A DNA stretch of 64,000 bases from an uncultured Acidimicrobiales bacterium (GTDB taxonomy: Bacteria > Actinomycetota > Acidimicrobiia > Acidimicrobiales > SZUA-35). The notes under the pieces are model-generated. The model worked only from the letters and a program-made list of their open reading frames with translations. It did no database searches and was not told where the DNA came from. The stretch is taken from positions 1-64,000 of the forward strand of contig CALAJV010000006.1 of the NCBI GenBank assembly GCA_937922805.1. The letters are read 5' to 3'. How positions within the stretch are numbered: position 1 is the stretch's first letter; every line of letters starts with the position of its first letter. A program made the translations under genes and the position numbers. Shown piece by piece: positions 46,711 through 58,918 of this stretch.

Positions 46711-46931
46711 TGAAACCTCTCAATTTGTCGACTCGGCCCGCTCCCGTTTTGCGAAGATAGCGTTTTGGCTCGGTAGTTAAATACTCGGTAGTGATTTGTC
46801 ATTGCCACCGACTCAGCTTGAGTTGACCGATCCCGACCGGCCGTAGCTGGATGGCCATCTGCTCTCGGTCAGGTGACGCTACGTCACATCGTATCCCGGG
46901 CGGCTCACACTGGCGAAACGATCGGAAAACA

Positions 46932-46968
46932 CCAAGGGCCCCACCGATAAACACGGTAGGGCCCTTGG
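46932..46968 (-). terminator. Terminator downstream of recA
   Basis: CCAAGGGCCC (46932-46941) pairs perfectly with GGGCCCTTGG (46959-46968), with an inner ACCG/CGGT pair and a 7-nt loop. On the minus strand it is followed by TGTTTTCC. It lies about 150 bp past the recA stop, before the MFS gene on the same strand, so it marks the end of a recA transcript. Confidence 0.75.
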
Positions 46969-47113
46969 CTTCGTTGCCGTGGCTCGACTCTGCAAGCGCC
47001 TTAGAAGCGCCTTGGAATTTGCTGCTCTCAAGCGTTTCAACTCAACGAAACAAGGAATTCGATGAGTGTCCAGGAATAAGAAGGCTTCCCGGGAAACGCC
47101 TTCTATGCAACAA

Positions 47114-48253
47114 CTACTTATCTAATGAAATTGGTTCATCGTCGGCAGACGTTGCTTTCTTCGACTTACCGCTTGCCTTTGACTTGCCCTTGGGCTCGAG
47201 ATCTATTACATCATCAGCTGCTGCTGCTGCCTCGGCGGCGGCGGCTTCGGCCGCTTCAGCCTCGTCGACTTCTGCAAGCCCGACTTCTTTAAGAACCCGA
47301 TCCTGGATTTCCATAACCAAATCAGGGTTATCAATCAAGAAGTTCTTGACGTTCTCGCGTCCTTGACCGATCTGCTCACCTTCGTAGGTGTACCAGGCGC
47401 CGGACTTCTTAACTATCTCACGATCAACAGCAATATCTAGCAATGATCCCTCACGGCTGATGCCCTTGCCGTACATGATGTCGAACTCGGCTTGCCTGAA
47501 CGGTGGAGCAACCTTGTTCTTGACTACTTTGACTCGGGTTCGGTTGCCAACAACTTCGGCGCCGTCTTTTAGCGATTCGATACGGCGAATGTCGAGACGA
47601 ACTGAACTGTAGAACTTAAGCGCTCGACCGCCAGGGGTAGTTTCTGGTGAGCCGAACATAACACCAATCTTTTCCCTCAACTGATTGATGAAGATACAGA
47701 TAGTGTCGGTCTTGTTGAGGTTGCCGGTGATTTTCCGCAACGCTTGAGACATCAATCGAGCTTGGAGGCCAACGTGGGTGTCACCCATATCCCCTTCGAT
47801 CTCGGCTCGAGGTGTCAAGGCCGCCACCGAGTCGATCACGATGACGTCGATCGATCCGGAACGAACCAAGATGTCGGCGATCTCCAACGCTTGTTCTCCG
47901 GTATCAGGCTGTGAAATCAGCAACTCATCAACATCGACACCAATGTTCGAAGCATAGAGAGGATCCATGGCATGCTCAGCGTCGATATAGGCACACGAAC
48001 CACCGTTCCGTTGAGCCTCAGCAACTACGTGCATGGCGAGCGTAGATTTACCCGAAGACTCAGGACCGTAGATCTCTACAACTCGTCCGCGTGGCAACCC
48101 ACCTACACCTAGCGCAAGATCGAGAGCGAGAGCACCCGTAGGCACGGTTGCGATCTCCATATCCGACCGGTCGCCCATCTTCATGACAGCGCCTTTGCCG
48201 AACTGCTTTTCGATATTGCCGAGCGCCATATCTAGCGCTTTGTTCTTCTCCAC
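47114..48253 (-). CDS. recA: Recombinase RecA
   Basis: 379 residues from a GTG with AGGAGA 8 nt upstream. Walker [10 protein letters not shown] (63-71), '[10 protein letters not shown]' Walker B, loops L1/L2 ('[24 protein letters not shown]' region, '[14 protein letters not shown]'). No intein is present. The C-terminal ~50 residues are low-complexity Ala/Glu then Lys/Ser, more extended than in many RecA proteins. It drives recombination and LexA cleavage. The SOS promoter lies about 280 bp upstream; recX is not downstream. Confidence 0.98.
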
Positions 48254-48571: not shown

Positions 48572-50878
48572 CTAGGGAGAACTTCTATCAACAATTTTCG
48601 CCTTTGTACGGTTTTGAGCCGCGCCACAAACCTCAACTCCTACATTCTGACTTCCCGAAGTTGCGGCCCCCGAATCTGATGCTTGTTCCTCCAACGATGC
48701 CAGCAGGCGGCGAACCCGGTCGGCGAGAACCGCAACTGAGTACTGTTGCCGGACATAGTTGACACCAGCCGCTGAGAGTGCCTCCCACCGAACGGGGTCA
48801 CGATGAAGTTCAACGATTCGCTGGGCAAATTCTTCGGTGGAGCCAGCCTCGACTACTAGGTCGCTAAACGAAACCTCTGATCGAGGCATTCCCTCGAACG
48901 CCACATCGGTGCCAATGACTGGCAGCCCGTAGTCCATGCTGGTGGCGACTTTACCTTTGAGCCCGGCCCCATATCGCAGCGGGGCGACGCTCAACCGAGA
49001 TTCACCGAACACCACCTCGATGTTGTCGAGATGCCCAAAGATCACCACATCAGGTGCGGCTTCGTTCCAAATTCGATCTGGCAAACCACCGCCAATAATC
49101 TTCAACGTGATTGGGGGAGCGCCGGTATCTCGACAACGCCGGCGCACCGCAGGCCAAATATCGAATAGTAGCCAATCAAGTGCATCTCGATTTGGCGGGT
49201 GAGCGAACCCGCCGATGAACACGACCCCGCTTCGTTCTTCGAACCGGGTTGGACCACGACCGTTAGGGACTCGAATGAGTGGAAGCACTGCCACCTGATC
49301 ATGCCCAAGGTCGGCCAGGTGCTTACGCTCAACTTCACTGAGAACGATTGAGACATCAGCGGCAGAAATAACTTGTAGCTCGCAGTGCTCGGTGTACCGA
49401 GCCTGCTCTATCAGCTTGGGATCGCCGAGCAGTTCGGCCTCACGCAATTCTCGGAGTCCATGCAAATCGACCGTGTTAAAGATAACGCTGGCACCCGGGC
49501 AATGGTTCTTCACCGAGTCGATGTGATTCTGAGCGATGAGATACCGACTCAATACAACGTGGTCGAAAACAATTTCATTGGCGGCCAGGTAAACATCAAC
49601 CGAGGCATAGTGCGGGGCCAGCAACGTTTCCACTCCCATCTGTTGCAGACGACGAGTTGACGCTCCCTGATCTTCCAAGTTCTCGTACGCATTGGCATAG
49701 TGAACTCGATAGCCCAGATCGAGTAAGATCTGAATCAGGTTCACCATGTCGAGCGACCCCGAATCCTTGCTCGGGGTCGGCGTGCAGGCGTCAATAATTA
49801 GTATGTGGCCCAACGCGATTCGGTCGGCTGCCATGAGGGGCCGAGCGCTTCCTCCTGGGAAATGCCGGGACAGTTCAAGCCGCCACTTCCGCTCAAAGGT
49901 CACCGCATTTGACGCCTGATGGCTCTTCGCTCCAGCAGTCAGGCTCGTACCGGAAGAAATTCCTTCGTAGTGAATGACTTCAGCCGCTGGTTGATAAAGC
50001 ACTCGAAAACCAGCTTTGCGAACAGCGAACGCCAGGTCAGTATCTTCGTAGTATGCAGGAGCGAACCGTTCATCGAAGCTTCCGACTTGAGCGAAGAGCT
50101 CAGACGGAATCATAAGCGATGCCCCAGAGACGTAGTCCACGTCGCGAACGTAGTTGAAACGAGGGTGGGTGGGATCATTGCCTTTCCCATAGTTCCAGCC
50201 GCTTCCATCGCGCCAAACAACACCCCCGGCTTCTTGCAGGCTGCCATCGGGATAGCAGAGCTTTGAGCCGACGATTCCGACCCTGTCGTGCTGCTCGAAC
50301 GTTGAACACATAGCATCGAGCCAGTCTTCGGCTACCCGGGTGTCATTGTTCAAGAACAACAGGAACCGACCCCGGGCTATCTCACTGGCCCGGTTGCAGG
50401 TGCGAAGGAAACCTAGGTTTTCATCGTTTTGGACGTAACGAACCCCTGGGATATCCCGAAGGAGTCCAACTTCAGCCTCGGTTGACCGGTCATCCATGAT
50501 GATGATCTCAAATCGACGGCGGGTCTTTAATTGGCGAAGAGAATCGAGACAATTGAGGGTGAAAGCCGTTTTGTTGTAAACGGGAACAATGATCGAAACC
50601 TCAGGATTACTTTCGGTTACGAAGCCGAGGTCGGCTCGAACCTCAGAGAGGTTTAGAGCGTTGATGGCGGCAATTGCTTGTTCATGAACCAGTTGATCCG
50701 GCGACCCAGCACCCACAGCACCGATGGCCGGCTCCTCGACGACGATTGGGTCACGTTCGACCTTTGACTCACTCCCCCACCCCCAACGCGATGACAACCA
50801 ACGCGATGACACCCAAGCCATGCTTCGGTGTTTGATGCTGATTGCGACGGAGCGGAGAAGCTGAGAGATTCGAGCCAC
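48572..50878 (-). CDS. Bifunctional glycosyltransferase (GT2 + GT4 domains)
   Basis: 768 residues. A GT2 domain at ~93-345: VSIIVPVYNKT, IIIMDDRSTE, LLFLNNDTR (metal/nucleotide site), and 'YYEDTDLAFAVRKAGFRVLYQP'. A second, GT4/GT-B-like domain at ~365-740 includes FIGGFAHPPNRDALDWL, 'LKIIGGGLP', and 'SVAPLRYGAGLKGKVATSMDYGLPVIGT'. Two domains in one chain suggest successive sugar additions to one glycan, as in O-antigen, rhamnan or capsule assembly. No signal peptide; a cytoplasmic, membrane-side role is expected. It is at the edge of the glycan island, next to recA. Confidence 0.88.
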   Translation of the reverse strand: MARISQLLRSVAISIKHRSMAWVSSRWLSSRWGWGSESKVERDPIVVEEPAIGAVGAGSPDQLVHEQAIAAINALNLSEVRADLGFVTESNPEVSIIVPVYNKTAFTLNCLDSLRQLKTRRRFEIIIMDDRSTEAEVGLLRDIPGVRYVQNDENLGFLRTCNRASEIARGRFLLFLNNDTRVAEDWLDAMCSTFEQHDRVGIVGSKLCYPDGSLQEAGGVVWRDGSGWNYGKGNDPTHPRFNYVRDVDYVSGASLMIPSELFAQVGSFDERFAPAYYEDTDLAFAVRKAGFRVLYQPAAEVIHYEGISSGTSLTAGAKSHQASNAVTFERKWRLELSRHFPGGSARPLMAADRIALGHILIIDACTPTPSKDSGSLDMVNLIQILLDLGYRVHYANAYENLEDQGASTRRLQQMGVETLLAPHYASVDVYLAANEIVFDHVVLSRYLIAQNHIDSVKNHCPGASVIFNTVDLHGLRELREAELLGDPKLIEQARYTEHCELQVISAADVSIVLSEVERKHLADLGHDQVAVLPLIRVPNGRGPTRFEERSGVVFIGGFAHPPNRDALDWLLFDIWPAVRRRCRDTGAPPITLKIIGGGLPDRIWNEAAPDVVIFGHLDNIEVVFGESRLSVAPLRYGAGLKGKVATSMDYGLPVIGTDVAFEGMPRSEVSFSDLVVEAGSTEEFAQRIVELHRDPVRWEALSAAGVNYVRQQYSVAVLADRVRRLLASLEEQASDSGAATSGSQNVGVEVCGAAQNRTKAKIVDRSSP

Positions 50879-50927
50879 TCACCCAGTTTCGTTCAAGACG
50901 CCAACCCACCGGGCCATGGTGGCCAGG

Positions 50928-51473
50928 TCAGCCCCCTTCACCGATTCGAGTCGAATCTGGGCCAGCGGTGTCCGGGCCACCAAACCGCGGTGTCGTCGTA
51001 CTGACAGAGGCTGCACTTGTTGTGGTTGTGGAAGCATCAGGATTGGAGTTGACGATTACTCCCGAGTTTCGAGGGTCGGTAGTCGTCGGTAGTGATGAAG
51101 GCCGAGATCTAGCTGATGTTGTCGACGTCGACACTGTTGTGGGCGAATGAACGAAACCTTCGATCAAAGCACTGCGATCAGGGCAATGATGGTTGAATAC
51201 AAATTGCTGAAACGCGAACTGCTGCTCATCCAGTTTGGCCCAAAGCCGCAGCAGCAGCTGGTCGTCGAGCTGGCAGAGATCGTCGGCGGTTTCAAGTTGA
51301 CTCACAACCTCAGCGGGCGAAAGCGTTCTCCCAGCGACCAGCTCAAGCCGTTCGCCGATTGTCAGCTCTGGCTCCGGATCGCTACAAGCCGAAACAGCTA
51401 GGACAGCAACGGCTGCTACCAGCAACGAGGCTGCCCTGAGCCGAAAGGTCGACGTTGACCTCAACCTACTCAT
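50928..51473 (-). CDS. Small lipoprotein of unknown function
   Basis: 181 residues. A signal peptide with lipobox (VLAVSAC, lipidated Cys at ~30) is followed by a short folded part (~35-110, GERLELVAGRTLSPAEVVSQL; two Cys) and a Ser/Thr/Pro-rich tail. It should sit on the outer face of the membrane. I do not recognise a family. The start overlaps the LLM gene stop by 4 bp (ATGA), and the GT gene follows 49 bp later, so the three could share an mRNA. Confidence 0.75.
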   Translation of the reverse strand: MSRLRSTSTFRLRAASLLVAAVAVLAVSACSDPEPELTIGERLELVAGRTLSPAEVVSQLETADDLCQLDDQLLLRLWAKLDEQQFAFQQFVFNHHCPDRSALIEGFVHSPTTVSTSTTSARSRPSSLPTTTDPRNSGVIVNSNPDASTTTTSAASVSTTTPRFGGPDTAGPDSTRIGEGG

Positions 51474-52369
51474 CGGAAAGAAGCGGCAACTTCAGTCAAG
51501 AATCGATCGCCGATCTCATCTTTTTGGTTCGGATCGCCAAGATTAAAGTCGGGAACGATAATCTCATCGACTCCCATTTCTTGCATCTCGGCTACTTGAG
51601 CCCGGAGTTCCTCAACGGTGCCGATCAGCGACGGACGGGCTATTCCCTTTTCTCTGAGCTTGGCCGACTCCGCCTCAGTATCGCACAAGAAAAGCAGGGC
51701 CACCGACGACCGTTGAATCGAAGCCGGGTCGCGTTCCAGCTGCTCACAGTGACGGTCAAGGACCGAAATCTTGTGGCGCATGATTTCCGGATCGGCCCAT
51801 ACATTCCACTCGTCGGCGTACTGGGCCACCATTCGAAGCGTTTTCTTTTCCCCCCCACCACCAATGAGGATTGGTAGAGGTCCGACCGGCTTCGGAGCCA
51901 ACGGGGCATCGAACATCTGGTAATGCTTGCCGTCGAACGACGTCAGATCATTGTCTCGCAGAGAAATAACAATTTGAAGCGCTTCCTCCAATTTTTCAAA
52001 CCGGTCAGTAAACGTTCCAAACTCCATGCCGTAGGCAACGTGTTCGTTCTCTTGCCAACCAGATCCGATTCCCAGGACCATTCGGCCACCGCAGACGTGG
52101 TCAGCTGCGACCGCTTGCTTCGCGAGGACGGCGGGGTTTCTATAGGTGTTGCCACAAACCATAGGACCGAGTCGAACGGTTGAGGTAACCTCACCCAACG
52201 CCCCTAGCAATGACCACACTTCATGCATCGGTCCGGTTCGATCGTCGCTGTTGGGCATGAAATGATCAGCAAGCCAAAGACCGTCCCAGCCAGCCTGCTC
52301 GCAGTGTTCGGCGCTACGCCGAATCTCGCCCCATTGGTGTCCATTGCCAAGCCAAAAACTGAACCGCAT
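51470..52369 (-). CDS. LLM-class (probable F420-dependent) oxidoreductase
   Basis: 299 residues, luciferase-like TIM barrel: 'CEQAGWDGLWLADHFM', 'VRLGPMVCGNTYRNPAVLAKQ', 'GGRMVLGIGSGWQENEH', and 'PLPILIGGGGEKKTLRMVAQYADEWN'. These match the actinobacterial subgroup that uses cofactor F420, although flavin-dependent members share much of the pattern. The substrate is unknown. Coupled by 4-bp overlap to the lipoprotein gene. Confidence 0.85.
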   Translation of the reverse strand: MRFSFWLGNGHQWGEIRRSAEHCEQAGWDGLWLADHFMPNSDDRTGPMHEVWSLLGALGEVTSTVRLGPMVCGNTYRNPAVLAKQAVAADHVCGGRMVLGIGSGWQENEHVAYGMEFGTFTDRFEKLEEALQIVISLRDNDLTSFDGKHYQMFDAPLAPKPVGPLPILIGGGGEKKTLRMVAQYADEWNVWADPEIMRHKISVLDRHCEQLERDPASIQRSSVALLFLCDTEAESAKLREKGIARPSLIGTVEELRAQVAEMQEMGVDEIIVPDFNLGDPNQKDEIGDRFLTEVAASFR

Positions 52370-53122
52370 GGCTTGACTCTAGCCATTCTGGTGCCAACAA
52401 GGCCATCGGCGACCCGAGCAGGCATGAACCTGATCGGCCCGTTAGTTCGTTAGTTGGTTAGTTACTAGTTAGGGGGCCAAACCCGCCTAGATTCCTCACC
52501 GTGAGAGGCGGTAGTTGTCGAGGTCTCTACGACGGGCTGGCCCACCCTTGCTCTAATGATCTTGGGCTGCCAAGATCGAGCAAGCCTTGCCGAGCTAGCA
52601 GGAGCTAACCCGGGCGAATCTTTTGCCGGACATGAACTCCAACAGAGCCACCAAACATGGGGCGGCAGCTAACTCACCAAACCAAATGGTCCAATGTCGA
52701 GACACGTTGTTCACTACGAAATCGACAGGCAGACGGGGCCCTCGTTCACCGGGTGTGTAACACCCACGACTGTTCCAAGACGAACAGCTGATCGCTTCTC
52801 TGATACCGGCCAATCGGCGCCAAGAGCGAACTCTTAAGCACTTGCTCTCCGCATGAGCCGCCCAGAGACAAGCACTAAGACACGGGTAGAACACACAAAA
52901 CGACCATGAGTCAGTCGCATGGTGCGACATCAATGTCGACCAATAGGCAGCCGCGGATACCCACCCAACGCGCGTTACGCTAGTTCCGATGGGGCCCGCC
53001 GCACCTGGAGTAGAGCAATTCTGTCGCGTCCAAAGCGAACCGCGCCTTCGGACAGGCTCACCTTTGGCGTTCGATAACCGCGCCTACCGCGTCTATTCTC
53101 AACCCTTAAGCCGAGGCTGTGG
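52370..53122. other. Gene-poor 750-bp stretch between divergent genes
   Basis: No frame here looks coding; the 112-residue minus frame at 52595-52933 has poor composition and no ribosome-binding site. It contains a short tandem repeat (52441-52472), a perfect hairpin GATCTTGG-GCTG-CCAAGATC (52558-52577) and CTCAC-C-GTGAG (52495-52505). It probably carries the promoters of the LLM gene (left) and of the sulfotransferase run (right). Confidence 0.55.
52441..52472. repeat. 8-bp tandem repeat GTTAGTTN
   Basis: Three copies of GTTAGTT plus one variable base run head to tail (52441-52464), followed by a related CTAGTTAG. The array lies about 70 bp upstream of the LLM gene start and may vary in copy number. 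Confidence 0.6.
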
Positions 53123-53881
53123 ATGGAACTGATTGTCGCTGGTTTCCACCGGAGTGGCACCTCCTTTACAACCCAAGCGCTCCATGCCGCCGGGCTGTTC
53201 GTCGGCGACGATCTACTTGGGGCAGTTCCATCTAATCCGTACGGACACTTCGAGGATCGAGTGGTCATCAAATTCCACGAGGATCTCTTGCAAGCGAACG
53301 GAGCGACCTGGCAGCTTGAGCGGCCGCTTATTCCTGCGGTAACTCCAGCTCAGTGGGGCCACGTGCAAAACTTCATCGCCAGACGGCGCCGTGATCACGT
53401 CTTCTGGGGTTTCAAAGACCCAAGAGTCTGTCATTTCCTGGGTTTGTGGCGCCATGTTATGCCTGGAGCCAAGGTTCTGGTTGTGTATCGACATTACGAC
53501 GGCTGCGTCCAATCGCTACACCGACGACACGCAATGCAACTAGCCAAGAACGAAGGGCCACCCCAGGTTCATCGGCGATTCTTCGAAGAACCGGACTTCG
53601 GTTTGAAAATGTGGATTCATCACAACAAAGCCCTACTTCGTCAGGCCAGAAATGCACCCGAGAACACCATGGTGGTTTCATTCGAAAATCTGACCGAAGG
53701 CTTTCCGCTCATGGAACGACTGATCAAAGTCTGGGACGTCCCATTGGAGCCATCGTCGGTTACCTCTCTGTTCGACCCGAAGGCCACTACGGCTCCCGAC
53801 CCCATCGACGTTTGCAGTCCCCAACTCGAAGCCGAGGCAAATGAGCTCATGGACCACCTAAACAATCTTCATCAAAGCTAG
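53123..53881 (+). CDS. Sulfotransferase-family protein
   Basis: 252 residues, start supported by GAGG 7 nt upstream. The PAPS-binding loop GFHRSGTSF (7-15) and a 3'-phosphate motif in WGFKDPRVCHFLGLW match cytoplasmic sulfotransferases. 'VLVVYRHYDGCVQSL' fits the second phosphate-binding segment. It would move sulfate from PAPS to a hydroxyl, here most likely on a sugar because the next genes are glycosyltransferases (inference). First gene of a five-gene run with gaps or overlaps of 10 bp or less. Confidence 0.85.
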   Translation: MELIVAGFHRSGTSFTTQALHAAGLFVGDDLLGAVPSNPYGHFEDRVVIKFHEDLLQANGATWQLERPLIPAVTPAQWGHVQNFIARRRRDHVFWGFKDPRVCHFLGLWRHVMPGAKVLVVYRHYDGCVQSLHRRHAMQLAKNEGPPQVHRRFFEEPDFGLKMWIHHNKALLRQARNAPENTMVVSFENLTEGFPLMERLIKVWDVPLEPSSVTSLFDPKATTAPDPIDVCSPQLEAEANELMDHLNNLHQS

Positions 53882-53888
53882 GAGAACC

Positions 53889-54287
53889 GTGGAACGCCAC
53901 TTAGAGTCAGCGGCCGCTCAGGACCTAATCAACAACGCTAACGACGAGCGAAGCCGATCGCCGGCGGAACAGAGCCAGGGTCGCCTTCGGAAAGACGATG
54001 ACATCGAAATTGTTGAACGGCAGGAAAATCATCGGTTAAGAATGGAATCTGAGCTGCTCACGATCGAATCACAGTTCCTTCGATCCACCCGCCACGAGGC
54101 CGACAGGCTCCATCAAGAAATCGCAGATCTCCATCAGCGACTGAGCGCCGCCCATGAAGAGATCCACCGTTTGACCGAAGCCGAACATCAGCTTCGTCGA
54201 TTGCTCACCATGGTAAACAACAGTCCGTTCGGCTTTGTTGCTCGTCGCAAGTGGGGATTTAGAAAGATGGTCGAGCAGTGGCTTTAG
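53889..54287 (+). CDS. Coiled-coil protein
   Basis: 132 residues from a GTG with AGGAGA 5 nt upstream. Residues ~45-110 are a strong heptad-type coiled coil (ENHRLRMESELLTIESQ ... EEIHRLTEAEHQLRRLL). The C-terminus is basic and aromatic (FGFVARRKWGFRKMVEQWL). Similar coiled-coil segments are often fused to the N-terminus of glycosyltransferases or methyltransferases, so this may be a scaffold for its neighbours. It lies 7 bp after the sulfotransferase and overlaps the next gene by 10 bp. Confidence 0.65.
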   Translation: MERHLESAAAQDLINNANDERSRSPAEQSQGRLRKDDDIEIVERQENHRLRMESELLTIESQFLRSTRHEADRLHQEIADLHQRLSAAHEEIHRLTEAEHQLRRLLTMVNNSPFGFVARRKWGFRKMVEQWL

Positions 54288-55306
54288 CAGTCCACTATCG
54301 CGGTGCTCGCGTCACCCAAGCGTCGCCTCTGTCGGGAGCTCGGCAGCTAACCGACTTCGACGTCATGCGTTTGGACCTGAGCGACAAAATTTCGGGCGCT
54401 AAACGACTCGACATTAGCGAGCCCATGTCATTTCCGTTCGAGGATTTGCCGTCATGGGCGTGGACCATGCCGCTTACGATTCATCTGCCTCAGCCAGGAT
54501 CCCCTGGAAGTACTGCCAGTTCGCTCGTCGCCTTACTGGGGTCCGATGTCTTTTCTCGGCTCACGGTACTCGACGCTGTTTCAGCCTCAGATGACGTGTG
54601 GCCCCAGCTCCAACAACGGTACGGGTGGCCAGACTGGATGAGGGTTAGTTCAGGGTCGTTCACCACCGCGGCCGAGATCAGAGACACCGAAGCGATCGAG
54701 CTAAAACGGGCTAAACACGGCCAAAGCCCCTACGACAACTTTTCGATTAGAACGACACAAAGCAAAGAACGCCTGCTGGCGGTCCGAGCCATTGTGCGGC
54801 GAAGTGTGAACCGAGCGACCGAACTCCTTTACCGAGACCCATCTATCCAAATTCATGGCTGCCACACGTCGGCGTTCGTTCCAATGATGTGGTCTGGACT
54901 GGCTGGCGTGTGTGAACACAATCGAGCTGGGCGACTACTTCTTCAGAAAAACTATCTGGCTCCCCCGTTCGAGCTAATCGATCCGGCCCTTGGACCTGGG
55001 TCCCGGCATGAATTAGTCGAATCAGCCGACATTGTCGTAGGTATTGGCAATTTGAGGCGACCCAGCAACCAAGACATCCGGGACGCGTTTGACGCAATGT
55101 TTCAGAGCCTGCGAGTAGGAGGGGCCCTCATCATCTGTGAACGGCTCAACGGTGTCTACGGCCCGAACGATCTGCTCGAACTTCTGCTCGATGCGTCGAA
55201 CCACGATCTGGTCATGGACGACATGGAGACTGTTCGAGTTCCAAGCGATGAAACTCACGGATACGCCGTGATGACATTTTGTAAGTTAGGAACCCCAAAA
55301 CGATGA
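54278..55306 (+). CDS. Unknown protein, weak methyltransferase-like C-terminus
   Basis: 342 residues from a GTG. No family recognised. The C-terminal third (ESADIVVGIGNLRR ... AFDAMFQSLRVGGALIICE) resembles late strands of a Rossmann methyltransferase ('LRVGGALII'), but no GxGxG SAM-binding loop is evident earlier. It is translationally embedded between the coiled-coil gene (10-bp overlap) and a GT4 gene (4-bp ATGA overlap), so a glycan-modification role is the natural guess; that rests only on context. Confidence 0.6.
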   Translation: MALAVHYRGARVTQASPLSGARQLTDFDVMRLDLSDKISGAKRLDISEPMSFPFEDLPSWAWTMPLTIHLPQPGSPGSTASSLVALLGSDVFSRLTVLDAVSASDDVWPQLQQRYGWPDWMRVSSGSFTTAAEIRDTEAIELKRAKHGQSPYDNFSIRTTQSKERLLAVRAIVRRSVNRATELLYRDPSIQIHGCHTSAFVPMMWSGLAGVCEHNRAGRLLLQKNYLAPPFELIDPALGPGSRHELVESADIVVGIGNLRRPSNQDIRDAFDAMFQSLRVGGALIICERLNGVYGPNDLLELLLDASNHDLVMDDMETVRVPSDETHGYAVMTFCKLGTPKR

Positions 55307-56613
55307 CAATTTACTCCGACGCCCAGTCGTCAAGCCCAGCCGCATCTGCCACTGGGGTTGGTGGGCCACCATATTTGGACCTCGCAGCCAACGCCATCCC
55401 AGGACGGGCTGACCGGACACGTCCAGTTGCTAGTCCCGAGGGGAAGCGACTGCCAGTCGTGATTGTCTCCAACGATGTAGTGCCCGGAATGGGGATGGCC
55501 GTTGCCGCTCCCGGTCTACGTAGCCACGGATTAGCTGAAGGGTTGACAGCAGCCGGCTTTACCGTCACTCAAACAGTGGCTGAGGGGCCAACTCGAGCAA
55601 AGTGGCATGGCTCTGTTCCGCCACCCCAGTTGCCGGACGTCGAGATAATCCGAACCGGGGACCTTGCAGACTATCTCCGTACCCGAGCACCGTTGATCGT
55701 GGTCGCCATTAACTCAAACCAAATCGACAAGATCCCCGATGACCCCAACATCCACCTAATCGTGGACTTGTTCGCCCCCCGGATGTTAGAAGTTGCTTGC
55801 CAATCGGACCACTACCCGATCGAGCAGTTGCGCGATATCCGGGCTCGAAACCTGGAAGCCTTTGCTCGTGCTGACGGCTTCATTGTGAACGGAGCCAAGA
55901 AAGTACCTTTCTATCTCGGCTGGCTCATGCAAGTCGATCGTGATCCTCGAACGGTTCCACTTGACGTAGTGCCGATGACGATGACGAAAGGGTTCGATGG
56001 CCACGCCTCCGAACGGTCAACCGTCGACGTCACCAACCGAAACATTCAAGCTGTAACTGCAGGGTACTTACAGGGTTGGAGCAAACCGGGCCAGTGGTTT
56101 TCAACAGTGGCCGACCTGGTGGGCGCATCCGACGGCAGCTTTAATGTCCTACTCGTGCCCCGACGAGGCACCGACGACGGAGGGGGCCAAATCGATGAAG
56201 TATTCAACCACTCCGCAGTTCAACCGCACAAAGAAATGCTCTTTCCTGATTTCCAACGGTTCATGTCCGGGATGGATCTAGCCATTGATCTTTTCTCTAA
56301 CAGCATCGAACGCCAATACGCCATGATCACCCGAACAGTTGGAGCCATCGCCTGTGGCTTACCTGTTGTTCATCCGCCCTGGAGCGAGACATCGTCCTAC
56401 ATCGAACGCTACGACGCCGGATGGCTCGTTGACCCCGACGATCAATTCGCCCTGACCACTACCTTGGCCGAGGCCCTGAACGACCGAGACGCTCTCGCCC
56501 AAAAGGCAGCCAATGCTCGCCGCCTATGGACTGAAGTGTTCAATCCGGAAGCTGCCGTTGGCCCACTAGTGCAACAGATTAATACAATCGCTAGTCAACG
56601 GAAATCCCTCTAA
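55303..56613 (+). CDS. GT4-like glycosyltransferase A
   Basis: 436 residues. GT-B architecture: an N-terminal Rossmann-like half with the 'PGMGMAVAAPGLRSHGLAEGL' segment near the start, and a C-terminal nucleotide-sugar half with 'TRTVGAIACGLPVVHPPWSE' and 'YDAGWLVDPDDQFALTTTL', typical of GT4. The first ~45 residues are Pro/Ala-rich and probably flexible. Start overlaps the previous stop (ATGA); the next gene starts 2 bp after its stop. Confidence 0.8.
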   Translation: MTIYSDAQSSSPAASATGVGGPPYLDLAANAIPGRADRTRPVASPEGKRLPVVIVSNDVVPGMGMAVAAPGLRSHGLAEGLTAAGFTVTQTVAEGPTRAKWHGSVPPPQLPDVEIIRTGDLADYLRTRAPLIVVAINSNQIDKIPDDPNIHLIVDLFAPRMLEVACQSDHYPIEQLRDIRARNLEAFARADGFIVNGAKKVPFYLGWLMQVDRDPRTVPLDVVPMTMTKGFDGHASERSTVDVTNRNIQAVTAGYLQGWSKPGQWFSTVADLVGASDGSFNVLLVPRRGTDDGGGQIDEVFNHSAVQPHKEMLFPDFQRFMSGMDLAIDLFSNSIERQYAMITRTVGAIACGLPVVHPPWSETSSYIERYDAGWLVDPDDQFALTTTLAEALNDRDALAQKAANARRLWTEVFNPEAAVGPLVQQINTIASQRKSL

Positions 56614-56615
56614 CC

Positions 56616-57794
56616 ATGAGCCGACCTTCAAGCCAACCGGGACCAACATTCGTTGCGGGTCAGAAGCCACAAGCCCCACTGGGCAATACCGCTGACCGAC
56701 GAATTGTCTTCTACAGCCCCACCTATGATCCGGTCGGCGGCGTGGTGAAGATTTTCGATTACGTAAATCATGCCTTGGCGGCCGACATGCACGTCGAGTT
56801 CGCGTGCCCAAAACCGTTTCCGCACGAGGGGCCGATACAAGACATCCCTCATATCGCTGATGCCCTCAATACCATCAAGATTCACCGCAGTTTGGATGTG
56901 CCGATCGGACAAGACGATTTAGCGTTCTTCTCCTGGCCCACTCACTATCGTGACATCGCTGAATGCTTGCCAGCGGGCTACAGCCACGACCAGTTAATTC
57001 ACATCGTGCAAAATGTCCGGCACGCTAACCCTCACTGGATCAAAGGCTACGCAACGCGGCTACTCGGACGGCCTTTATCGAGAATCATGATCACCGATGA
57101 AGTCGAGGCTGCCTGTCGGCCGTGGGTTAACCCAAACTCAATCACCGAGACAATCATTGAGGGACATGCTGCCGACTACTTTTCGAAAGCTCGGTTCGGT
57201 CAGTTCAACAATCCTATTCGAGTTGGCTACACCACCTGGAAGTCAGAGGTTGGCTTAGAAGTCGAACAGCTCCTAGCCGACGACGATCGATTCGTTTTTC
57301 AATCGATCCAGACAACGGCCGGGTGGTCTGATATCCGATCGCTGTATCACTGGTCCGACATTTTCCTTGGCTGCCCTGGACCAGAAGAAGGCTTTTACCT
57401 CGTCGGGCTAGAAGCCATGGCCGCCGGCGCCATCCTACTAATGTCGGACGCTGGCGGAAATCGGGCCTACGCTCAGTGGGGCAAAAATTGCCTGCAGGTT
57501 AGACACGACTCAGCATCGGACTACGTCGACAAGATCGATGATTTAGCAACGTCTCATCCAGAAATTGTCAACGACCTGCGCCTTAGCGGATACCAAACGC
57601 CGGCCGCCTTTACGCTCGACCGGGAAGCGGCCCAATTTCGTCAGATGGTGGCCAATATATGTGACCCAAATCATTGCCGGTCGACGGCGCCATCGCTCGA
57701 TCATGACCTGACTCTGGCCCAGTCGACGTACGGTGAGCAAATTGTGCCTCCAAGCGCCGCAGCCGCCCTTCCTGCCGGTCTGGGCCGAACCTGA
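56616..57794 (+). CDS. GT4-like glycosyltransferase B
   Basis: 392 residues. 'FYSPTYDPVGGVVKIFDYVNHAL' is the acceptor-domain Gly loop, and 'GPEEGFYLVGLEAMAAGAILLMSD' holds the EX7E motif of GT4 enzymes. The last ~40 residues look disordered. Both this and the preceding enzyme probably act on a membrane-anchored glycan in the cytoplasm. Last gene of the sulfotransferase run. Confidence 0.83.
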   Translation: MSRPSSQPGPTFVAGQKPQAPLGNTADRRIVFYSPTYDPVGGVVKIFDYVNHALAADMHVEFACPKPFPHEGPIQDIPHIADALNTIKIHRSLDVPIGQDDLAFFSWPTHYRDIAECLPAGYSHDQLIHIVQNVRHANPHWIKGYATRLLGRPLSRIMITDEVEAACRPWVNPNSITETIIEGHAADYFSKARFGQFNNPIRVGYTTWKSEVGLEVEQLLADDDRFVFQSIQTTAGWSDIRSLYHWSDIFLGCPGPEEGFYLVGLEAMAAGAILLMSDAGGNRAYAQWGKNCLQVRHDSASDYVDKIDDLATSHPEIVNDLRLSGYQTPAAFTLDREAAQFRQMVANICDPNHCRSTAPSLDHDLTLAQSTYGEQIVPPSAAAALPAGLGRT

Positions 57795-57892: not shown

Positions 57893-58918
57893 ATGGCAGA
57901 AACGCAAGATCCATTTTCAGCTCCGTTCGGAACACTCTTCGGTGATCAGTACACCGTGGCCACCATGGCTGAGGGGACCTATCACTATTCCGGCAGCCCG
58001 GTACCGCTGGAGAATTTGTCCCTGCACCCGGCAACGCACGCTCTCCACTACGGCAGCACATGTTTTGAGGGTTTGAAGGCCCACCGCCAGGCTGACGGCT
58101 CCGTCGCTATTTTTAGGCTCGACGACCACATCAACCGGCTGTTGCAGTCGATCAGTCGGCTTAGAATGCCGCCACCCGATTTCGATATGGTTCGGACCAT
58201 GATCGTCGACGCGGTTGCCGCCAACATCGACGCCACTCCCGATGCACCAGGATCGCTTTATCTGCGTCCAACCTTCATAGGCACCGCCGCCAACATCGGT
58301 GCTGCCGCCTCGCCAAGCTCGACCGCATTGTTCTACGTTCTAACATCGCCAGTCGGCGACTATTTCGCCGGAGGCATCCGGCCTTTGACCATCTACATCG
58401 AAACATCAACACCTCGGACAACGCCCCAGTTCGGGATGGTTAAAAGCGGAGCCAATTACGTTATGGCCTTGGGTCCTACGCTCGACGCAAAACGCGATCA
58501 CGCCGCCGATCAAATCTTGTTCGCCACCAATGGAGATGTGACTGAAACCGGAGCGGCCAACTTCTGTTTGGTAGATGGCGACAGAGTGATCACTCGAAAC
58601 CTGGATGAGTCCTTCTTGCATGGCGTCACTCGGAATTCGATTCTAACCATCGCTTCTGACATGGGTTACACCGTTGAAGAACGGGCGCTTCCGCTTGACG
58701 AGGTAAAGGCTTTTGCTGAGCACGGCGAAGCGTTCCTTTCCGGCACCGCCGCAGTCATCTCCCCCGTTGGCAACATCTTAGTCAACGACGAAAAGATCTC
58801 GTTCGGTGACGGCCAACCGGGCCCGAACTCGTTGAAGTTGCGGGAAGCGTTGGTTGGAATCCAGCTTGGCAAAGCCGAAGATACTCACGGCTGGCGAACA
58901 GTAGTTCAAGCCGGCTGA
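57893..58918 (+). CDS. ilvE: Branched-chain amino acid aminotransferase
   Basis: 341-residue fold-type IV PLP enzyme. Catalytic Lys in GMVKSGANYVMAL; 'LHYGSTCFEGLKAHR', 'LYLRPTFIGT', 'ETGAANFCLVDGD' and 'FLSGTAAVISPVG' match IlvE. It makes Leu, Ile and Val from their keto acids with glutamate as donor. The ribosome-binding site is weak. It is transcribed toward cinA. Confidence 0.92.
   Translation: MAETQDPFSAPFGTLFGDQYTVATMAEGTYHYSGSPVPLENLSLHPATHALHYGSTCFEGLKAHRQADGSVAIFRLDDHINRLLQSISRLRMPPPDFDMVRTMIVDAVAANIDATPDAPGSLYLRPTFIGTAANIGAAASPSSTALFYVLTSPVGDYFAGGIRPLTIYIETSTPRTTPQFGMVKSGANYVMALGPTLDAKRDHAADQILFATNGDVTETGAANFCLVDGDRVITRNLDESFLHGVTRNSILTIASDMGYTVEERALPLDEVKAFAEHGEAFLSGTAAVISPVGNILVNDEKISFGDGQPGPNSLKLREALVGIQLGKAEDTHGWRTVVQAG

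Follow-up and report, generated by a model that had tools for sequence, protein, structure and literature searches.

A recurrent five-gene cassette that probably makes or decorates a sulfated surface glycan, inserted between cinA and recA in an uncultured Acidimicrobiales bacterium

Introduction

Why do sugar- and sulfate-transferring genes lie between cinA and recA in an uncultured Acidimicrobiales bacterium (lineage SZUA-35; assembly GCA_937922805.1), and what might they make? The window, the whole 64,000-nucleotide stretch analysed here, is the initial 64 kb of a 358-kb contig (CALAJV010000006.1) in a genome of 4.5 Mb. An earlier note, drawn from the sequence of the window, had described a glycosyltransferase and sulfotransferase island at this site and predicted a sulfated surface glycan. 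Herein, we focused on five consecutive genes, which encode a sulfotransferase (ST), a short coiled-coil (CC) protein (53889), a protein with a methyltransferase (MT) fold (54278), and two glycosyltransferases (GT), GT4a and GT4b. They recur as a cassette in distant bacteria, and their probable role is to build or modify a sulfated surface glycan.

Results

A collection of 84,980 genomes was scanned with the ST alignment, which generated 80 loci, and these together with earlier loci were searched with profiles of the CC family and of the 54278 N-terminal domain, as well as with the remaining proteins. All five genes were present in 16 distinct loci including the window, distributed among Actinomycetota and Pseudomonadota. 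The order of the window, ST-CC-54278-GT4a-GT4b, was found in ten of them: the window, L104 (Acidimicrobiia), L105, L110, and L111 (Rubrobacteraceae), L112 (Nocardioides), L113 (Nitriliruptorales), L114 (Sediminihabitans luteus), L115 (Rhodobacteraceae), and L119 (Palleronia aestuarii). A rotated order, GT4a-GT4b-CC-54278-ST, was found in the six others, all from Acidimicrobiales (L102, L117, L127, L129, L131, and L144). L118 and L145 were repeats of L099 and L102 and were left out of the count. Partial cassettes were present in L106, L107, L109, and L121, as much as the contig ends allow, and in L108 an ABC-2 (ATP-binding cassette) permease and ATPase followed GT4a in place of GT4b. The CC and 54278 N-terminal-domain families occurred in no locus without the ST, which is not an independent test because every locus was retrieved via the ST.

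Trees of ST, GT4a, and GT4b were built by quick maximum likelihood, with short searches, without bootstrap, and with weak deep branches. The six rotated loci formed one group in each tree (SH-like approximate likelihood ratio test support, 98-100), apart from the ST-first loci. In every tree the window fell among the ST-first loci, beside L104 for ST (support 85) and GT4b (support 89). Judged from these sequence comparisons, the five genes are a conserved, horizontally spread cassette and not a chance island. Among other Acidimicrobiales, many species carry the rotated cassette (L117, L127, L129, L131, L144, and L145), several with identical flanking genes, and it looks vertically kept there. 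In an independent census of 397 genomes of the order with the CC profile, eight were positive, namely this genome and seven of one genus in another family, under a strict threshold that missed a weaker copy in the genus-mate G005; thus, the window copy would be an isolated gain within its family. Three genus-mates (G005, G007, and G009) carried a related ST at another place in their genomes, accompanied by CC and 54278 in G005 and by weakly similar partners in G007 and G009.

In the window, the ST matched Sulfotransfer_3 (PF13469) with an E value of 1.6e-7 (32.2 bits, cut-off 27). It carried the motifs of the site for 3'-phosphoadenosine-5'-phosphosulfate (PAPS), HRSGTS in the 5' loop and R...S on the 3' side, and R10, S11, G12, T13, S14, R123, and S131 were invariant in alignment A1; the enzyme is predicted to transfer sulfate from PAPS. 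Relatives of up to 52% identity were found in Rubrobacter. The search for solved-structure relatives of the subfamily returned one repeat-protein match, which was discarded as spurious. Four Sulfotransfer_3 family sites were present in this genome; here and below, genome-wide statements are based on family searches and individually retrieved stretches. GT4a matched GT-B enzymes in the PDB by profile and was 42% identical to the Rubrobacter cassette copies, and GT4b matched PglH-like and MshA-like GT4 enzymes.

A coiled-coil scan placed a heptad coiled coil at about residues 54-112 of 53889. Members of its family have in common the C-terminal motif L..L..SP.g...RR..gFR.l..r[YW], which occurs once in the window copy and twice in Rubrobacter copies, and the CC proteins range from 84 to 236 aa across copies. 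In the Rubrobacter proteins (L105:9564-11446, L107:9749-10213, and L110:2024-2503), the motif is repeated in tandem in units of about 45 residues, and in L105 this repeat also opens the next protein. Pfam matches of 53889 (PspM/Rv2743c, tropomyosin, and others) were rejected as low-complexity and below cut-off. A test for an amphipathic helix at the C-terminus revealed moderate hydrophobic moments, off-centre from the conserved motif, and was unconvincing. Importantly, the CC formed the C-terminal part of the ST protein in L115, L119, and L116. Longer single chains were also found: ST-CC-GT4 in L158 (Paenibacillus), its GT recognised by the iterated GT4a profile and not by Pfam; ST-CC-GT4-GT2 in L175 (Vicinamibacteria); and ST-CC-GT2 in L016 (Acidimicrobiales genome G054), its ST recognised by similarity to the window protein. 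An apparent ST-CC fusion in L112 was not counted, as the listed frame is out of register over the ST.

The window 54278 protein had no match in Pfam or NCBIfam, and a single-sequence search found no relatives in 148 related genomes or the genome collection; its relatives were reached via ST neighbourhoods only. Seven of 13 aligned family members matched Methyltransf_11/25 (E values down to 1e-21), and the family profile matched methyltransferases among solved structures. Late rounds of the iterated profile were rejected since they pulled in ordinary methyltransferases, and membership was therefore set by gene position and the N-terminal-domain profile. An AlphaFold model was generated from 13 sequences, with a predicted local distance difference test (pLDDT) of 72.5 and a predicted template modelling score of 0.75. 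In this model, residues 148-342 are a class I S-adenosylmethionine (SAM) methyltransferase fold, aligned with NodS (3ofk) over 167 residues (Z 15.6, root-mean-square deviation (rmsd) 3.3). The glycine-rich SAM loop (E/DxGxGxG) is degenerate, reading IHGCHTSAF in the window versus EVGCGTGRW in Rubrobacter. Because of this loop and the missing Pfam match, we did not class the protein as an active methyltransferase; it is probably inactive as such in the window strain and may act there as a structural partner alone.

The N-terminal domain of 54278, with the signatures YAGR and SFP[FW]E, was retained in the rotated Acidimicrobiales copies, in which the methyltransferase core was mostly gone. In Nocardioides (L112:10151-12043), an FkbM-type methyltransferase domain (Methyltransf_21) replaces the core. 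As the core is lost or replaced while the N-terminal domain stays, the latter is the part retained by selection. Its model (pLDDT 82) had a weak likeness to GT-B N-domains, with HepE first (Z 7.6, rmsd 3.5, 118 aligned) and Gtf3 and WaaG next, all scores being under the reliable level of the tool, and Foldseek with this model gave no match under an E value of 0.001. Both 53889 and 54278 had been taken for proteins of unknown type, a question now partly resolved. 53889 belongs to a recognisable CC family that is fused to the ST in other bacteria. For 54278, the structure prediction that had been suggested recovered the degenerate class I methyltransferase fold, which follows the small conserved N-terminal domain.

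The limits of the insertion were determined from eight genus-mates with the region on a single contig, read using the window proteins. The distance from cinA to recA was approximately 2 to 5 kb in these genomes versus 10.7 kb here, and none of the eight had glycan genes in between. Their order was cinA-ilvE-(LLM)-lipoprotein-recA, where LLM is a luciferase-like monooxygenase-type oxidoreductase; ilvE and the lipoprotein gene were present in all eight and LLM in four (G001, G002, G006, and G011). Since the genus-mates hold these three genes without glycan genes, they are old residents of the site. Read from this comparison, the insertion is two separate pieces, the ST-CC-MT-GT4-GT4 block between ilvE and LLM and a GT2-GT4 gene between the lipoprotein gene and recA (Table 1). 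The G+C content of the insert (0.54-0.57), both in total and per codon position, was the same as that of the neighbours, so a signature of recent transfer was rejected, and the gain would be old or from a similar donor. Neither mobile genes nor repeats were seen flanking the inserts; one 29-base partial direct repeat was judged to be chance. In G002 and G011, recA was inverted relative to cinA (L085:352-1422 and L091:5846-6823), a sign of a rearrangement-prone stretch.

The comparison across related genomes that the earlier note had proposed thus showed a five-gene set that recurs, inside an island whose borders had been misdrawn: the extra glycan genes are real, and ilvE, LLM, and the lipoprotein gene are ancestral neighbours and not members of a glycan set. 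All the open reading frames (ORFs) it named exist and are placed as described, and the five genes do abut or overlap, with spacings of +7, -10, -4, and +2 bases. As for its rimO-pgsA-cinA order, the rimO C-terminus and pgsA-type domains are located past cinA, but a 719-aa alpha/beta hydrolase separates cinA from pgsA. A promoter scan 5' of 53123 found no promoter-like site.

Table 1. Genes of the cassette and its neighbours in the window
Feature	Position	Strand	Evidence
ST, Sulfotransfer_3 subfamily	53123..53881	+	Pfam PF13469, alignment A1, relatives
Short CC protein, recurrent family	53889..54287	+	Family profile, fusions in relatives, coiled-coil scan
342-aa protein, N-terminal domain and class I SAM-methyltransferase fold (predicted)	54278..55306	+	Alignments A4/A6, structure model
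GT4-like glycosyltransferase a (GT4a)	55303..56613	+	Sub-cut-off Pfam, PDB profile matches
GT4 glycosyltransferase b (GT4b)	56616..57794	+	Pfam PF13692 and PF00534 above cut-off
GT2-GT4 fusion, between lipoprotein gene and recA	48572..50878	-	Pfam PF00535 and PF13692
ilvE, ancestral neighbour outside cassette	57893..58918	+	TIGR01123; adjoins cinA in 8/8 genus-mates
F420-type LLM oxidoreductase, ancestral neighbour outside cassette	51470..52369	-	TIGR03560; same site in 4/8 genus-mates and other genera
Small lipoprotein-like gene, ancestral recA neighbour outside cassette	50928..51473	-	Same site in 8/8 genus-mates

The profile matches of the GT2-GT4 protein included phosphatidylinositol mannosyltransferase. 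In G005 and G001, domains 50% identical to it were located beside the ST genes and were preceded by an N-terminal part with the motif HxFKNAG[TS]S, which resembles that of sulfotransferases; Pfam support for this part was sub-cut-off in G005 and absent in G001. The fusion, although a separate insert, is probably tied functionally to the cassette. Very large proteins of genus-mates (L099:12801-18136 and L103:9727-13428) join an ST-like N-terminus to methyltransferase or GT2-GT4 domains. Elsewhere in the window, a 171-aa ORF at 46851-47366 (+) lies antisense over the recA C-terminus, and its similarity in relatives is due to the frame of recA itself.

Genes for PAPS synthesis and glycan export, which a sulfated glycan had been expected to need elsewhere in the genome, were both found. 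The cysD, cysN, and cysC genes lie together on contig 11 (L200:4216-10001), beside LytR-CpsA-Psr, Alg14-like, and GT2 genes; this stretch is a second candidate sulfated-glycan locus. Kinase genes for adenosine 5'-phosphosulfate (APS) were present in 30 of 31 relatives, so their presence is permissive and not specific. Two ABC-2 permease/ATPase pairs (Wzm/Wzt-type) were found, one on contig 16 beside sugar-nucleotide genes and one on contig 22, and a flippase on contig 11. Among other copies, Wzm/Wzt pairs adjoined L108 and L116, the L116 ATPase having a Wzt_C domain. A UDP-sugar dehydrogenase gene lay near the cassette in L113, and sugar-nucleotide enzymes were also encoded in L148 (Desulfovibrionaceae). 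The L148 copy is a distant one, and after it come genes for a fused ATP sulfurylase-APS kinase and for a PAPS-reductase-domain protein. Ahead of this copy (L148:6009-17182), which comes from a metagenome-assembled genome, lie genes of heptose-type sugar activation (SIS, nucleotidyltransferase/HAD, and GHMP kinase).

Discussion

The most probable role of this horizontally spread cassette is the synthesis or modification of a sulfated surface glycan. We favour this reading because the five genes recur together, copies have glycan or sulfate genes as neighbours, ST, CC, and GT are fused in single chains, and cysDNC and exporters are present in the genome. GT4a and GT4b would work on the cytoplasmic side to assemble a sugar chain, probably helped by the GT2-GT4 protein. 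The ST would add sulfate to the chain, using PAPS from the genome's own CysDNC; the CC protein would tether the ST, the methyltransferase-like protein, and the glycosyltransferases; and the completed chain would be exported via one of the genome's own exporters. In relatives, the best reading is that the glycan is also methylated. We infer that the enzymes act jointly, that a glycan is the sulfate acceptor, and that the product lies at the surface.

Several points weigh against this reading. Co-expression of the five genes is deduced from their spacing alone. The Pfam GT1 matches of GT4a are below the cut-offs in the window copy. The window contains no Wzx/Wzy or ABC exporter gene, and the export route is assumed. 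GT4 enzymes also serve in glycolipid synthesis and small-molecule modification, and none of the cassette copies has a known product. The prediction of a sulfated surface glycan is thus upheld by recurrence, neighbours, fusions, PAPS genes, and exporters, and falls short where it makes a surface polysaccharide the sulfate acceptor and in having no exporter in the window. A literature search aimed at this gene combination, with most subscription papers outside its reach, found nothing.

A more specific version is that the ST is a chain terminator, capping the non-reducing end with sulfate to stop growth and license export, like WbdD in Escherichia coli O9a, while the CC spaces capping from the polymerising enzymes; in relatives, the methyltransferase would add a second cap. 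The fusions, with ST, CC, and GTs from N- to C-terminus, match the terminator-ruler-polymerase layout of Klebsiella pneumoniae O7 (PMC11231755) and related systems (WbdD, PMC3482155), a methyltransferase adjoins, Wzm/Wzt genes lie beside some copies, and the CC varies in length among copies. However, no exporter with a glycan-cap-binding domain is tied to the cassette, the CC is short here (approximately 60 residues), its amphipathic-helix test was unconvincing, and identical genes would be needed for mid-chain sulfation. By analogy, it is a tentative idea, and one we hold to be rather doubtful, that sulfate capping by the ST sets chain length in a CC-organised polymerase complex, as a module travelling between actinobacteria and alphaproteobacteria.

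A sulfated glycolipid or small sulfated glycoside, not a polymer, is an unlikely product. Two GT4 enzymes would suffice for a short lipid-linked sugar, the MshA-like and phosphatidylinositol mannosyltransferase matches of GT4b and the GT2-GT4 protein fit, and the window has neither polymerase nor flippase; but the CC partner, the fusions with further GTs, and the ABC glycan exporters adjoining some copies speak against it. We give still less credence to a glycan attached to an S-layer or secreted protein instead of a free or wall-bound polysaccharide: GT4b matches PglH, a protein-glycosylation enzyme, and the window has no polymer-anchor enzyme, but no oligosaccharyltransferase or S-layer gene was recognised near the copies in gene lists judged by eye. 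Finally, a chance cluster of unrelated genes is highly improbable, for although the recA-cinA stretch is a gain site with two separate inserts in this genome, recurrence in 16 loci, with identical order in nine besides the window and rotated order in six, refutes it for the five-gene set, a refutation that does not extend to the GT2-GT4 gene.

The ST cassette brings two partner families, the CC protein and the 54278 N-terminal domain, that the family databases used here lack. It provides a genetic handle on sulfated glycans in actinobacteria and alphaproteobacteria, and its cultured carriers, such as Sediminihabitans luteus DSM 25478 and Palleronia aestuarii DSM 22009, make sulfation, chain length, and export accessible to testing.

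Comparison with known systems

Compared with Sulfotransfer_3 (PF13469), the ST shares sequence family and PAPS-site motifs, whereas its subfamily is bound to its own CC partner. The 54278 protein shares the fold of class I SAM methyltransferases such as NodS but has an extra N-terminal domain and a degenerate SAM loop.

In terminator-ruler-polymerase systems, terminator and polymerase sit at opposite ends of a coiled coil (PMC11231755, PMC3482155), and the terminator WbdD of Escherichia coli O9a is a kinase-methyltransferase (PMC3482155). Like WbdD and the K. pneumoniae O7 ORF6 protein (O9a, PMC3482155; O4/O7, PMC11231755), the cassette has a transferase, a methyltransferase fold, a coiled coil, and glycosyltransferases clustered or fused, and an ABC exporter lies beside some copies (L108 and L116). 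Unlike them, it has an ST in the terminator-like place, no kinase was seen, and the methyltransferase is degenerate in the window. The window CC is a separate short protein with the other modules in neighbouring genes, one-chain fusions being found in relatives only. We do not claim WbdD-type membership because the window locus has no dedicated ABC exporter and the capping and ruler functions are hypothetical.

The synechan xss genes of Synechocystis, which include eight glycosyltransferases as well as regulators, make up an almost complete Wzx/Wzy cluster (PMC8205485). Both sets contain an ST and several GTs, and the xss product is a sulfated polysaccharide (PMC8205485). The window cassette, in contrast, is without flippase or polymerase and adds a CC and a methyltransferase-like protein; it is probably a compact, mobile, and novel form of sulfated-glycan biosynthesis.

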